From the NCBI GenBank assembly GCA_903861125.1, contig CAIOTF010000042.1, positions 124,001-188,000 of the forward strand: a stretch of DNA of 64,000 nt, read 5' to 3'. The first letter of the stretch is position 1, and each line of letters starts with the position of its first letter. This DNA comes from an uncultured Ignavibacteriota bacterium (GTDB lineage: Bacteria; Bacteroidota; Ignavibacteria; UBA10030; UBA8401). The position numbers and the translations under genes are program-made. Positions 44,415-48,821 of the stretch are shown in pieces. The notes beneath the pieces are model-generated. The model ran no database searches. It worked only from the letters and a program-made list of their open reading frames with translations, and had not been told where the DNA came from.

Positions 44415-45566
44415 CTATTTTAAAAGATTACGTGCAATCACCAGTTTCTGTATTTCGCTTGTTCCTTCGCCGATGGTGAGCAGTTTTACGTCGCGGTAGA
44501 ATTTCTCTACCGGAAAGTCCTTCGTGAAGCCGTAGCCGCCGTGGATCTGCACCGCATCACCCGATGCGCGTACGGCAACTTCGCTGGCAAAATATTTTGC
44601 CTGCGCCGCTTCCAGATTCACATCAAGTCCCGCCATCTTCATCGATGCCGCTTTGCGCGTCAATAATCTGGCCGCTTCGATCTCCATTGCCATATCGGCA
44701 AGTTTAAACTGGATTCCCTGATTGTCCGAGATCGGTTTGCCGAACTGTACTCGTTGCTTGGAATATTTTATGCTGGCTTCCAGCGCACCTTGCGCCAGGC
44801 CGACCGAAAGCGCGGCAATGCCGATCCTGCCGCCATCCAGCACGCCGAGCGCCTGTTTGAATCCTTCGCCTGCAACGCCGATAAGATTCTCTGCCGGTAT
44901 GCGTACATTGTCAAACAGCAGCGATGCTGTTTCGCTGCAACGCATACCGAGTTTATTCTCTTTTTTACCGGAGGAAAATCCGGGTGTTCCTTTTTCTACG
45001 ATGAATGCCGAGATCGATTTGTTTTTCGACTTATCGGTCACTGCCAATATCACGAACGTATCGGCGGAAACCGCGTGTGTAATAAAATTCTTGCTGCCGT
45101 TGATCACCCATTCGTTCCCCTCTTTTACCGCAAATGTTCTCATCCCTCCCGCATCACTTCCGGAGAACGCTTCGGTCAAACCCCAACCGCCGAGTTTCCG
45201 GCCGCTGCAAAGATCGGGAAGATATTTTTTCTTCAATGCATTGCTTGCATTATTATAAATGTGACTGACACAGAGTCCGTTGTGTGCACAGAGTCCGAGA
45301 GCGACTGACGGATCGACCTTGGCGATCTCTTCGATGATGACTGTAAAATCGAGCGTGGTGAGTCCGGCCCCTCCATATTCTTCAGGATAATACGCACCGA
45401 GGAAACCGAGTGCAGCCATTTTAGCGAAGATCTCTTTTGGGAATTCCTGCGATTCGTCGTACTTCATAACGTGCGGCTTGATCTCTTTTTCGGCAAAATC
45501 GCGCGCCATTGTTTGGACCATGATCATCTGTTCGGTGGGGGCAAAACTTATGGCTGCGTCGGACAT
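44415..45566 (-). CDS. Acyl-CoA dehydrogenase
   Basis: The start at 45566 is chosen because AAGGAACACTC precedes this ATG; the open frame reaches 45659 through sequence that reads as intergenic repeat. The 383-residue protein has the standard FAD-dependent dehydrogenase layout, with WGLTEAFSGSDAGG in the FAD-binding region and GEGTSEIQKLVIAR holding the terminal region near the catalytic base. The pairing with acyl-CoA carboxylase beta suggests isovaleryl-CoA dehydrogenase in leucine breakdown, though butyryl-CoA dehydrogenase is not excluded. Confidence 0.92.
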   Translation of the reverse strand: MSDAAISFAPTEQMIMVQTMARDFAEKEIKPHVMKYDESQEFPKEIFAKMAALGFLGAYYPEEYGGAGLTTLDFTVIIEEIAKVDPSVALGLCAHNGLCVSHIYNNASNALKKKYLPDLCSGRKLGGWGLTEAFSGSDAGGMRTFAVKEGNEWVINGSKNFITHAVSADTFVILAVTDKSKNKSISAFIVEKGTPGFSSGKKENKLGMRCSETASLLFDNVRIPAENLIGVAGEGFKQALGVLDGGRIGIAALSVGLAQGALEASIKYSKQRVQFGKPISDNQGIQFKLADMAMEIEAARLLTRKAASMKMAGLDVNLEAAQAKYFASEVAVRASGDAVQIHGGYGFTKDFPVEKFYRDVKLLTIGEGTSEIQKLVIARNLLK

Positions 45567-45607
45567 GAGTGTTCCTTCATATGTTTGATGAGGATTTAGA
45601 TTAATAA

Positions 45608-45660
45608 AGTGTGTCTTTCGTGACGCGTCGTGGCAATCTGCCCGTGCGAAGGGTGACACT
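45608..45660. repeat. Imperfect palindrome in the gap between acyl-CoA dehydrogenase and nuclease-helicase
   Basis: The gap 45567-45871 has no gene. Its first part holds an imperfect inverted repeat in which AGTGTGTCTTTCG (from 45608) faces CGAAGGGTGACACT (ending 45660), with GTGGCAATCTGCCCGTG inside. It resembles a small mobile intergenic palindrome. Only one copy is in the window. Confidence 0.5.
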
Positions 45661-45766
45661 AACGAGTAATTTTATCTGGCTAAAATCATGTTTTGATTCA
45701 ATACCGGACATCGTTGTATGAAAATAGAAAAGGCGGAACTGAAGTGCAAATGAAATGTAGTAATAT

Positions 45767-45796
45767 CACCACGGAGGGCACAGAGGACACGGAGAA
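45767..45796. repeat. Short purine-rich direct-repeat tract
   Basis: The tract CACCACGGAGGGCACAGAGG and the following ACACGGAGAA contain the unit ACGGAG twice with a GCACAGAGGAC-like spacer. Tracts of this type occur between genes in many environmental bacterial genomes. It translates in one frame to a 60-residue open frame that I regard as an artefact. It stands 75 bases downstream of the nuclease-helicase stop. Confidence 0.4.
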
Positions 45797-45871
45797 TCAT
45801 TAAAAGATAACCAACTGCCTGCACAAGAGGAGTTCGTTTTGGATCGGCGTACATTTTTCTTAGTCAATATT

Positions 45872-47845
45872 TTATAATACAGTAAATCCGATTTTTTTTA
45901 GATATTCAAACGTAGGATCATAATATTCCGCTTTTCTTGTAGGATCTTCATTGTCTCCTTCAGGAACTACTATTACCATTCCCTGTCTAGCTCGAGTCAA
46001 AAGCACTCGATAAGCATTTTTTTGATAATTTTTACGTTCTTCACTTTTTATGTTATTCCAGCGATTACCTCGAAATGATTTATTAATCCATCCATTTTTC
46101 CCATACCTGAAGTCTGCATCCCAAGTAATACAAGCCCAATCAAGTTCTAATCCTTGCACGGCGAATTCTGTTGCAACATCTTCAAGATAATATGATGAAC
46201 GCACATCATCTTTTTCGTTTAAGAACCAATTAACTGGTTTCATGGGGGATTTTACATCAATTGCATGCGGCTTTAATCGTTCAGCTTGAGAAGATACAAC
46301 GATGCCATAACGTTCCGTACCACGAGATTGCCTTTTTAGCCATTGTTTTGCTTTAAGAAGATTTCTTGTAATAACGATTGGGTATTTGTTTTTAAGATTT
46401 GTAAATGTTTTACTTGCCTCGATATTCTCAAGATCAAGAAGTTGCTTAACCAATAATGATACATTCTCCGCACGGAAAGAACGCATTGAAACTGAAAGAT
46501 GTAAATCACTATTTGGAACTATTTGTGATTGAGATTTTATTTCACTCATTATCTTCCCTGCACCATATTCGCTATCATCAAGATGAGGAGAGAGATATAT
46601 TTTCCAGTTTGGAAATGAACGATTCAATGATTCAATCCATTCACTAATTCCAGCTTCACCAGTATTAATTTCCTGGCCTCCTCCAACTAAACAAACAATT
46701 ACGGCCCAATCTCTATGCCGATCTAAACAAGAAATTAAATATTCTGGCTCGGATTGATTGAAATTTGATATCTTTTTTTTCCGTTGCATGAAGTTTCTTG
46801 TTTGTTGCACATTCCATGCTCGTTGAGCTTCGTCAAATATTGCTACGTGATCACTAGGAGGTGTTTTATCAATAAGATAAGCATCTCGATAATTATGGAC
46901 GTTCTGAATAAACATGCTCACTTCACTCAGCGCAACTTTCTTTGTTATCCTTCGATTTTGCATTTTTTCGCTTTTGACTTTATCTCTAGCCAATGCCTCT
47001 CTGAGTATAGAAACAAGGGGAGCATTGCCAGAGAGATAAACGCTATGCAATCCACTTTTACTATTGACATGTTTAGTGGCAATATTTAGACCAACTAAGG
47101 TTTTACCAGATCCAGGGACTCCTGTGACAAAACAAATTGATTTTTGCAAATTCGACTTTGAAAAATTAATTACATCAGATATCGCTTGCGAAGTTAAAGT
47201 AAGGTTTTTATCACTTGCATCTTTTCGTGATATATCTTCAACTGAATGGTTTTTATATAGTGACATTGCCGCTTCAATAATTGTTGGAGTAGGGCAATAT
47301 CTACCACTGCCCCAATGTTTTGGATCAACAATATCACCTGACGTTGAGTGTAAAACACTATTTATTACATCCCCTAGCATCTCCAAATTGCATTTAATCG
47401 GGAAAAGTAACTTATCGTTTTGTGGAGTAACTTCAATAATTGCAGCAGAAAGCTTTGCTTTTGAAGCAATAAGTATAGGTGCAATAAACTGATTATGACT
47501 TGGTTCGTGAAAATTTTTTAAGTCTAATGCATAATCAAAGACCTGATCAATTGCAGAGGTTAAATATTCTTTTTCTCCCATCTTAAATTCAAGAACAAAT
47601 ATTACCGAACCAATAATGACGACAGTATCAATTCGTTTTCCCATCCGTGGAATAGAGTATTCAAAATATATTGTTCCAGAAAATAACTTTAATGTTTCTT
47701 TTAATATTTCAATTTCTTCCGACCATGAGTCCATCTGAGTAGGTTCAGTTGAGAATTCATTATTGGATGCAATAATACCTATGATCTCATTAGAACTGGT
47801 CCTTCTGAAATTATCTAGCGAATCAGAATAATATTCTCTTTTCAT
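45872..47845 (-). CDS. DUF2075 family nuclease-helicase (PD-(D/E)XK-like N-domain plus SF1-type helicase)
   Basis: The 657-residue protein has two parts. Residues about 1-170 resemble a PD-(D/E)XK nuclease: RIDTVVI with Asp73, then VLEFKMG with Glu86-x-Lys88. Residues about 230-657 form a DUF2075 helicase-type ATPase: Walker A GVPGSGKT at 242-249, Walker [10 protein letters not shown] at 336-344, the [18 protein letters not shown] motif at 386-403, a late [17 protein letters not shown] motif, and [14 protein letters not shown] as the arginine finger motif. The gene is clearly AT-richer than its neighbours, with many A/T third positions, and has no operon partner, which suggests horizontal transfer. 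A role in phage defence or DNA repair is inference. Confidence 0.85.
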
Positions 47846-47853
47846 AATATTTT

Positions 47854-48738
47854 TTATTTCTGCCCCTTCTTAAACGCTTCTTCAGATATTTCCTGTTCCT
47901 CGTCCCGTGAGTAACCTGGACAGAGAGAAAGATCATTCAAAAGCATCTTGCTGTGTTCAATGTCAATCTTGTCGGTACGCAGGCGGAGCGGCAATGTAGA
48001 AACCTTCTGGAGCAGTTCTTTGCCTGCTTCAATATCCTTTTTGTTATCGTTATCCAGTCCGCGGGTGATCAGCGCTACGCCGTACTCCTTCACGATCTCG
48101 ATGCGAGTGGGATCAAGTTCAATTGCTTTTTTGCAGTATTGCACTGCTTTATCCAGGTCCCCGCTGATACCGAAAGTCCATTTCAGCAGAAAAAATGAGG
48201 GGCAGAGCCTGTAATAGACACCGAGTGCGATATTCGCCGATGCTTCCAGATTTTCTCCGTTCGGTGTAACATAATCCGAATGCCGGCTGACGGCAACAAG
48301 CCAGTCCTGCTCGATCTGTTTCGCGGAAAAGAGTGACGAGAGAATCCCTTTGGTGGTAGACATTCGCGCATTGGCGAGTCCGCGCATAAAATAACATTCC
48401 CCTTTGTCCGGCGCCGCTTTCATCCCCTCTTCGGCAATGCCGACCATTTTTGCATAGATATCGAGCTTCCACTGCTTTTCGTCGGACTTCTTCACATCAA
48501 GTTTCTCGGCGATCTCGTAATAGTCCAGACAGATCATTGCACGAACAAGATGATCGTTCGGTTTATACTTCAGCGCCTCACGGCAGCTCTTTATGGATTC
48601 TTCAAATTCGTACTTCCCCAGTTGTTCATCCGCTTTTTTAAAATAGCTATTGTACTGTTCTTCTGCATTCGGACCGCTTTGAGCCGAGAGAATTGTTGCA
48701 AAGAAGAAGAGCGCAAAGAAAACGATGGATGATCTCAT
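47854..48738 (-). CDS. Exported TPR-repeat protein
   Basis: The start at 48738 is chosen because it begins the signal peptide [19 protein letters not shown] with AAAGG just upstream; the frame is open to 48813 without support. The 294-residue product has tetratricopeptide-type repeats: [35 protein letters not shown] style units and a later [29 protein letters not shown]. The protein probably scaffolds interactions in the periplasm. It precedes the nuclease-helicase on the same strand by eight bases, but its composition is that of the rest of the genome. Confidence 0.82.
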
Positions 48739-48821
48739 TGAAACCTTTGATGTGTGAATAAAATGTTCTGATGAATATGGAGAATTGGAATTATTGATGC
48801 AATGGAAAAGCAATCATGTTT

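Follow-up and report, generated by a model that had tools for sequence, protein, structure and literature searches.

Results

The nuclease–helicase gene at the locus

The window analysed here, a stretch of 64,000 nucleotides from contig CAIOTF010000042.1 of an uncultured Ignavibacteriota bacterium, contains an intact open reading frame (ORF) that combines a predicted nuclease domain with a superfamily 1 (SF1) helicase domain (Table 1), and that a first-pass annotation, made from the letters of the DNA, had put forward as an isolated candidate defence gene. Over residues 1–656, its product matches positions 1–652 of 657 of the PADLOC model PDC-S41 (PDLC05014; E 5.1e-285, 944.9 bits), and by this comparison the gene is a new member of a catalogued PADLOC candidate family. 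The PADLOC models for AbiO, Nhi, and GajB have their best stretches around the Walker A region only. The start codon lies 8 nt behind a tetratricopeptide repeat (TPR)-like gene on the same strand, and an acyl-CoA dehydrogenase gene lies on the other side.

Table 1. Features of the locus in window coordinates, together with the loci of the companion protein GNYK
Feature	Position	Strand	Basis
PDC-S41 family single-gene nuclease–helicase, intact, 657 aa	45872..47845	-	ORF, Pfam, PADLOC, composition
Predicted PD-(D/E)XK nuclease domain, residues 1–200 as modelled; core alpha-beta-beta-beta-alpha-beta, residues 35–127	47246..47845	-	AlphaFold models, structural matches
Predicted nuclease active-site codons Glu62 (47660–47662), Asp73 (47627–47629), Glu86 (47588–47590), Lys88 (47582–47584)	47582..47662	-	Invariant in 57 homologues
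QhxxY motif, Gln101-x-x-x-Tyr105	47531..47545	-	Q101 and Y105 invariant in 57 homologues
SF1 helicase domain, PF09848 SLFN-g3_helicase, residues 235–628	45962..47143	-	Pfam
Walker A, GVPGSGKT, residues 242–249	47099..47122	-	Sequence, alignment
Motif II, DEAQRAW, residues 338–344	46814..46834	-	Sequence, alignment
Segment exchanged relative to congener G004, which has 945 bp with an HNH-nuclease gene there (L097:3355–4299)	45846..47854	.	Flank alignment
Acyl-CoA dehydrogenase gene, conserved left border of the exchange site	44415..45659	-	Function name by our own reading
TPR-like gene, right border	47854..48813	-	TPR label by our own reading
Tract of three CACRGAG units, 9 nt apart	45767..45794	+	Repeat scans
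GNYK loci	L148–L151, L154, L155, L158, L049, L051, L182, L201–L209		Profile search

The N-terminal domain is predicted to be a PD-(D/E)XK nuclease, RecB-like by its QhxxY motif. Pfam has no match in residues 1–200, and the assignment draws on conservation and on structural modelling. In an alignment of 57 of the 70 copies (69 loci from a scan of genome contigs plus the window; 13 were left out as truncated or with in-frame stops), Glu62, Asp73, Glu86, Lys88, Gln101, and Tyr105 are invariant, and V102 is conserved at 90% or more, with Q101-V-x-x-Y105 lying within helix 96–112. The QhxxY motif is conserved in Cas4 and other RecB-like nucleases, as stated in the accessible part of PMC4625639. In residues 1–200, cysteine is absent from every column that is invariant or nearly so among the 57 homologues; the invariant cysteines (C238, C385, C572) are confined to the helicase part, and a Dna2/Cas4-type iron–sulphur cluster is therefore not indicated. 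Asp73 and Glu86-x-Lys88 had been singled out at first pass as marks of a PD-(D/E)XK-like domain, and the fold expected from them is present in the AlphaFold model (predicted local distance difference test score, pLDDT, 91.9; predicted template modelling score 0.89; 57 aligned sequences), which has a helix (35–54), three strands (58–65, 70–78, 81–88), a second helix (96–112), and a fourth strand (120–127), that is, the PD-(D/E)XK order of elements. When this model was compared with the PDB by Foldseek, McrC was the best match (E 5.9e-4) and the sole one of 264 with E of 0.001 or below; a second structural comparison was led by Can2 (Z 9.2 over 137 residues, root-mean-square deviation, rmsd, 3.9) and Cdn1, at Z 8–9, followed by EndoMS, Hjc, and NucC at Z 5–8. 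These matches are distant, and a few unrelated proteins stand further down both lists; the top PDB neighbours are mostly what we take to be nucleases of the PD-(D/E)XK fold.

For the helicase part, Pfam returned one strong full-domain match, PF09848 (E 5e-84, 283 bits where the cut-off is 24, covering profile positions 1–353 of 354), with other ATPase models on the same stretch. This family is the former DUF2075, and the complete DUF2075 helicase-type ATPase of the first-pass annotation is borne out over nearly the full profile. The motifs that we take to be those of the helicase are largely invariant among the 57 sequences, namely Walker A (242–249), DEAQ (338–341), and C-terminal motifs near 564–569 and 611–623. 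An AlphaFold model of the whole protein (mean pLDDT 81.6, same alignment) had its best Foldseek matches in SLFN11 (top), Dna2, Upf1, and chain D of RecBCD, with TM-scores of about 0.3 or less, and UvrD came first by the VIA Z-score (17.8); UvrD, RecD, and Dna2 are thus structural neighbours of the whole model. The SLFN11 rows that reach the N-terminus have an rmsd of 9 to 15, and only the helicase match is therefore sound. A Schlafen core ribonuclease (RNase) domain is not among the 14 Pfam families with E up to 1. The whole-model VIA rows had raised the idea that the linker of SLFN proteins is a decayed copy of the nuclease domain, which was dropped, as the isolated N-domain gave no SLFN protein among the 50 matches listed per program; in SLFN5, the linker is described as a mixed alpha/beta domain of unknown function in the accessible part of PMC8789055. 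A sequence search of the PDB with the protein alone gave no match, and four matches from a profile search (E 0.011–0.031) were taken as chance.

Foreign composition and exchange within the genus

The gene is compositionally foreign. In 113 kb of its contig there are 89 non-overlapping ORFs of at least 150 aa, and its GC content is the lowest of them all (0.348, versus an ORF mean of 0.462 with a standard deviation of 0.029; at third codon positions 0.231 versus 0.495), and its codon-usage distance of 0.284 is the maximum among ORFs of at least 300 aa, the next value being 0.173. The earlier description of the gene as visibly AT-richer than its neighbours was correct, and in GC content as in codon bias it is unlike the rest of the genome. 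Across PDC-S41 loci, gene GC was lower than flank GC in 61 of the 68 with enough flank, gene and flank being correlated at 0.72; 20 further loci had a lower value in the gene in 17 cases, an equal one in 1, and a higher one in 2.

Three of the eight genomes of the genus carry PDC-S41 (our own, G005, and G001), each time beside the same acyl-CoA dehydrogenase gene, and the position is thus kept in a minority of close relatives. In G004, the congener closest by flanking DNA, alignment with the window runs as far as 45845 and resumes at 47855, the two flanks having 93.6% and 92.4% identity. The 945 bp between these points contain an unrelated AT-rich gene (GC 0.32) of 246 aa in the opposite orientation, whose Pfam match to HNH narrowly exceeds the cut-off and which weakly matches the PADLOC REase_II model (E 3e-6); PDC-S41 has no match anywhere in G004. 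The dehydrogenase of G006 and G002 adjoins an amidohydrolase-like gene (by our own reading), with neither nuclease present, and G003 and G007 (79% and 82% complete) have no PDC-S41 and no close copy of the dehydrogenase, which leaves the site unreadable there. G005 and G001 are more distant than G004 and yet both have PDC-S41 here, so the simplest reading is a replacement of PDC-S41 by the HNH gene in the G004 line. The G001 copy is 72% identical, compared with 87% for its neighbouring dehydrogenase (195 aa compared), which points either to faster evolution of the nuclease–helicase or to its replacement.

In G004, the TPR-like gene at the border is divided between two reading frames (L097:4302–5184). 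Elsewhere, a remnant of an HNH-nuclease C-terminus was found by tblastn directly behind a PDC-S41 stop codon (L036:9970–10080), and similar HNH remnants follow the gene, as judged by eye, in L024 and possibly in L053; at such loci, PDC-S41 may have landed in an HNH gene. We rejected the HNH gene of G004 as a regular companion of PDC-S41, as the 69 genome-contig loci hold one homologous fragment, that of L036.

Distribution across bacteria

The 69 loci of the genome-contig scan, whose patterns favour close relatives, have 52–88% identity and come from many phyla, among them Bacteroidota, Chloroflexota, Nitrospirota, Planctomycetota, Verrucomicrobiota, Spirochaetota, and candidate phyla. With our own genome included, PDC-S41 is present in 22 of 395 genomes of the phylum and in 8 of 100 relatives, and it was found in 1 of 14 named control genomes. 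IMG/VR yielded 12 loci with 28–57% identity. In a quick tree of the 57 sequences, the 14 phylum labels need 18 changes, the minimum being 13 and the average of shuffles 31, which indicates some vertical signal; the smallest well-supported set of more than two rows that includes the window gene comprises 16 rows of six named phyla and three unassigned rows. Binning errors in metagenome-assembled genomes (MAGs) can add false transfers. These sequence comparisons suggest that the gene was horizontally acquired and moves between distant bacteria.

Copies with broken frames occur at L060, L061, L065, L074, L076, L077, and L078 and in G376, and represent decay or MAG assembly errors. L150 and L155 belong to different species of the same genus; their sequences are 95–97% identical over the 403 bp preceding PDC-S41 and the 1096 bp following it, against 84–88% in the outer flanks, which suggests a recent exchange of the gene together with its surroundings.

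Neighbouring genes at homologous loci

A simple script was used to call the ORFs around the homologues. Among the genes next to or near the homologues are Vsr-like endonucleases, C5 methyltransferases, HNH_2 nucleases, YhcG/PDC-S02, and type II restriction endonuclease-like HNH proteins, as well as many metabolic genes and IS110 transposases. One neighbouring HNH_2 nuclease resembles NF045808, a phosphorothioate-DNA restriction enzyme, below the cut-off of that model. Vsr-like genes occur in the vicinity of 4 of the 69 loci (Pfam check on one), C5 methyltransferases make up 2 of the 127 adjacent ORFs, and Acyl-CoA_dh_1 is matched by 1 of these 127. The widest neighbour clusters are generic families that reach at most 8 loci, and a general operon for PDC-S41 is therefore not indicated. 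A pooled defence-island statistic (224 PADLOC models in the 127 adjacent ORFs versus 74 in 130 distant ones) was not relied on, as one protein can be described by many models and the listing covers 25 models.

In G005, a 69-aa XRE regulator lies just upstream of PDC-S41 (L098:11645–11854). XRE-type regulators also stand directly upstream in L010, L141, and L143, and those of L098, L141, and L143 have 68–69 aa and lie upstream of the PDC-S41 start codon or overlap it.

Repeats and other signals around the gene

The gene had also been described as flanked by palindromic and tract-like repeats, and this holds for the tract and fails for the palindromes. A CACRGAG tract with a 9-nt unit lies about 80 bp past the 3' end of the gene. 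In a search for inverted repeats whose arms have 7 nt or more and are separated by no more than 60 nt, 45600–45900 was free of them, and the sole one at these settings is a single 9-nt AT arm pair around the start codon. The repeat scans saw no terminal repeats at the gene borders, the window has no tRNA that could have served as an insertion site, and no Rfam family reached its gathering threshold; terminator-like sites are at chance level (3 found, 2.8 expected), and so are promoter-like sites.

At L023, a CACRGAG tract lies 25 bp past the tblastn end of the PDC-S41 gene. Mobility of PDC-S41 by means of the tract was rejected, since none of 20 further PDC-S41 loci has a tract within 200 bp of the gene, G005 lacks the tract-bearing segment and still has PDC-S41 in place, and the tracts bound GxxExxY genes. 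Two such genes (TIGR04256) are found in the same genome as the window (L167:988–1381 and L168:996–1431), each between inverted CACRGAG tracts about 400 bp apart, an arrangement like that of a small mobile element. The tract in the window is perhaps the remnant of an unrelated GxxExxY element.

A small companion protein of several nucleases

At some PDC-S41 loci, we found a small acidic protein, GNYK, of about 95–145 aa with the motif YRDxGNYK and a pI of 4.4–5.2 (13 proteins). It is encoded beside PDC-S41 in 9 of 90 loci (89 distinct, as L139 and L024 are the same contig, judged by length and gene position), in eight within 52 bp and in one about 1 kb away. Four arrangements occur, in which GNYK lies downstream in convergent orientation, upstream in the same direction, downstream in the same direction, or behind an HNH_2 gene. 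All of these loci were fetched via PDC-S41; five of the nine GNYK proteins are seeds of the profile, and seven come from one genus. Across 21 genomes of that genus, PDC-S41 occurs in 7 and GNYK in 8, all 7 PDC-S41 genomes having an adjacent GNYK gene compared with 1 of the 14 others (one-sided Fisher test 6.9e-5, with no correction for kinship; G376 has a broken PDC-S41 copy). The one other genome, G245, has GNYK 38 nt before a PLD-SF2 enzyme that matches the PADLOC model mREase_IV (E 1.6e-161).

In the phylum, GNYK is present in 17 of the 395 genomes, from 5 genera; four of the 17 contributed rows to the GNYK model. All 17 sites abut a nuclease gene, which is PDC-S41 in 7, mREase_IV in 1, and a member of one HNH_2-type family in 9. 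The HNH_2-type proteins have 253–259 aa in eight cases, one being truncated, and seven of the nine come from two genera; HNH_2 was confirmed by Pfam in five, and the other four were joined to them by visible similarity. Outside the first GNYK genus, 15 of the 22 PDC-S41 genomes of the phylum remain, none of which has GNYK, and this makes GNYK an optional companion. Four GNYK proteins compared with PADLOC had no match, and three compared with Pfam had none that passed its cut-off. The genome of the window has no GNYK, and the protein thus bears on the PDC-S41 family and not on the window copy. On the viral contig L200 (3519–3851), GNYK lies 11 nt behind a 278-aa gene.

Discussion

We think it probable that the gene arrived by horizontal transfer and is a mobile defence gene, encoding a self-contained nuclease–helicase of the PDC-S41 family that is directed against the DNA of invaders. 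From its architecture, we expect the protein to be a translocase powered by ATP that carries its cutting domain at the front, with working parts like those of Dna2 or RecB. The SF1 motor would load on DNA that offers free ends or exposes single strands, such as plasmid DNA or intermediates of phage replication or injection, and would translocate along it with ATP, the fused RecB-like PD-(D/E)XK domain would cut the passing DNA, and either the invader genome would be destroyed or the infected cell would die. Nhi and Hna are antiphage nuclease–helicases, and both are linked to the phage single-stranded DNA-binding protein (SSB) in the accessible parts of PMC10732053 (both) and PMC12904381 (Nhi), the former describing Hna as activated by phage SSB; we therefore take an attack directed at ends or single-stranded DNA as the most likely one. 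We infer both the defence role itself and DNA rather than RNA as the substrate, and any statement on the trigger or on self-protection would be a guess. The first-pass proposal of a candidate defence gene is strengthened by the full-length PDC-S41 match, by homologues that cross phyla, and by restriction-type neighbours at some loci, and stops short of proof.

Several observations weigh against this interpretation. Our literature search found no published experimental test of PDC-S41, and the accessible part of PMC12988326 presents the PDC families as single-gene candidates obtained by 'guilt-by-embedding', most of them unvalidated; PDC-S41 is not named in the main text of that paper as far as it was accessible, and the literature that mentions DUF2075 was, in its accessible parts, not about defence. 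By reading of the ORF list, no defence gene stands within a few genes of the window copy, and defence enrichment beside the homologues is modest: among the matches listed, no PADLOC family occurs in more than 5 of the 127 adjacent ORFs, and restriction-type and other PDC families are also found in the 130 distant ones. The nuclease domain has no close structural match, the best being the Can2 match given above. As to mobility, the gene sits at one place in three of the eight genomes of the genus and is hence not a very recent arrival in the lineage, and its low GC may partly be a trait of the PDC-S41 family, which weakens composition as evidence for recent transfer. Few relatives were found on possible vehicles of transfer, with 4 in 72,556 plasmid records (28–48% identity) and 1 in 50,697 phage records (48.5% identity).

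Some of the same observations would be expected of a selfish, homing-type nuclease gene, whose nuclease would mainly serve to spread or retain the gene itself; this could explain the patchy spread of PDC-S41 across phyla and the lack of a neighbour family common to most of its loci, and the presence in G004 of an unrelated HNH gene at this position would reflect competition between selfish nucleases. A helicase motor is unusual for homing enzymes, however, no terminal repeat was seen at the gene borders in the repeat scans run, and the PADLOC listing as a defence candidate and the restriction genes near some loci point elsewhere, so that we regard a selfish gene as unlikely. Restriction genes also enter into the idea of a type IV modification-dependent restriction enzyme that attacks foreign base modifications, SauUSI- or McrBC-like in its action: McrC is the best PDB match of the nuclease model, Vsr-like genes and C5 methyltransferases occur near homologues, and the GNYK gene of G245 adjoins a PLD-SF2 mREase_IV. 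The protein has, however, no recognisable reader domain for modified bases, its N-terminal 200 residues being blank in Pfam, and C5 methyltransferases stand at only a few loci, which makes a type IV enzyme distinctly unlikely.

The structural neighbours Dna2, UvrD, and RecD, and a QhxxY nuclease type common to RecB-like enzymes, would also suit a non-essential, Dna2-like nuclease–helicase of DNA repair without a defence role. Yet a presence in 22 of 395 genomes of the phylum and in three of eight congeners, a foreign composition, and a tree discordant with that of the organisms are unlike a core repair gene, and we consider this role very improbable. It is extremely improbable that the protein is a Schlafen-like effector whose helicase senses nucleic acid and whose nuclease cuts RNA and thereby stops translation. 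The helicase is classed with Schlafen group 3 and SLFN11 heads the whole-model Foldseek matches, but that likeness is sound for the helicase only, Pfam found no Schlafen core RNase domain, and the PD-(D/E)XK-like domain has neighbours that are mostly DNA cutters.

The PDC-S41 family is already catalogued as a defence candidate, and the GNYK link is the newer lead and lies outside the window. PDC-S41 may be one of several unrelated defence nucleases that share GNYK as an exchangeable companion, an immunity or guard protein (a DNA mimic, an inhibitor, or a sensor) that would plug into PD-(D/E)XK–SF1, PLD-SF2 type IV, and HNH_2 nucleases alike, solo copies such as that of the window being under another form of control, perhaps autoinhibition or read-through from the gene upstream; we offer this as a tentative proposal that we doubt somewhat more than we believe. 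If the link holds, one small family joins three unrelated classes of restriction nucleases, which would hint at a control step common to them and could aid the search for further systems, and this is the part likely to surprise specialists. The locus itself provides a compact, intact single-gene copy of PDC-S41 with predicted active sites, and the exchange at its site is a clean natural one, in which the same place carries PDC-S41 or an HNH nuclease; with this natural control pair, the defence claim is directly testable.

Among known systems, Nhi of Staphylococcus epidermidis (PMC12904381, PMC10732053) and Hna of Sinorhizobium meliloti and E. coli (PMC10732053) are, according to the accessible parts of these papers, similar in uniting nuclease and helicase parts in one protein. 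The PADLOC model of Nhi, however, matches only residues 228–270 of the window protein (43 residues in the Walker A region, E 1.2e-5), and Hna is not among the PADLOC families matched, the presence of an Hna model in the library not having been checked. SLFN11, a human Schlafen protein of group III, shares the family of the helicase domain and is the top whole-model Foldseek match, whereas the window protein lacks the Schlafen core RNase and has the PD-(D/E)XK-like domain in its place. Dna2 has the same order of parts, with the nuclease domain before the SF1 helicase, and was matched by the whole model (5eaw and 5ean, E about 1e-7, TM-score below 0.3), but the window protein is smaller and has no conserved cysteine in residues 1–200. 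McrC and the CRISPR ancillary nucleases Can2 and Card1 share the PD-(D/E)XK fold with the N-terminal domain; McrC works with the McrB GTPase and Can2/Card1 with cyclic-nucleotide sensors, and not with a fused SF1 helicase. To PDC-S41, finally, the window protein is a full-length match of the same length, and nothing that we examined separates it from the family.

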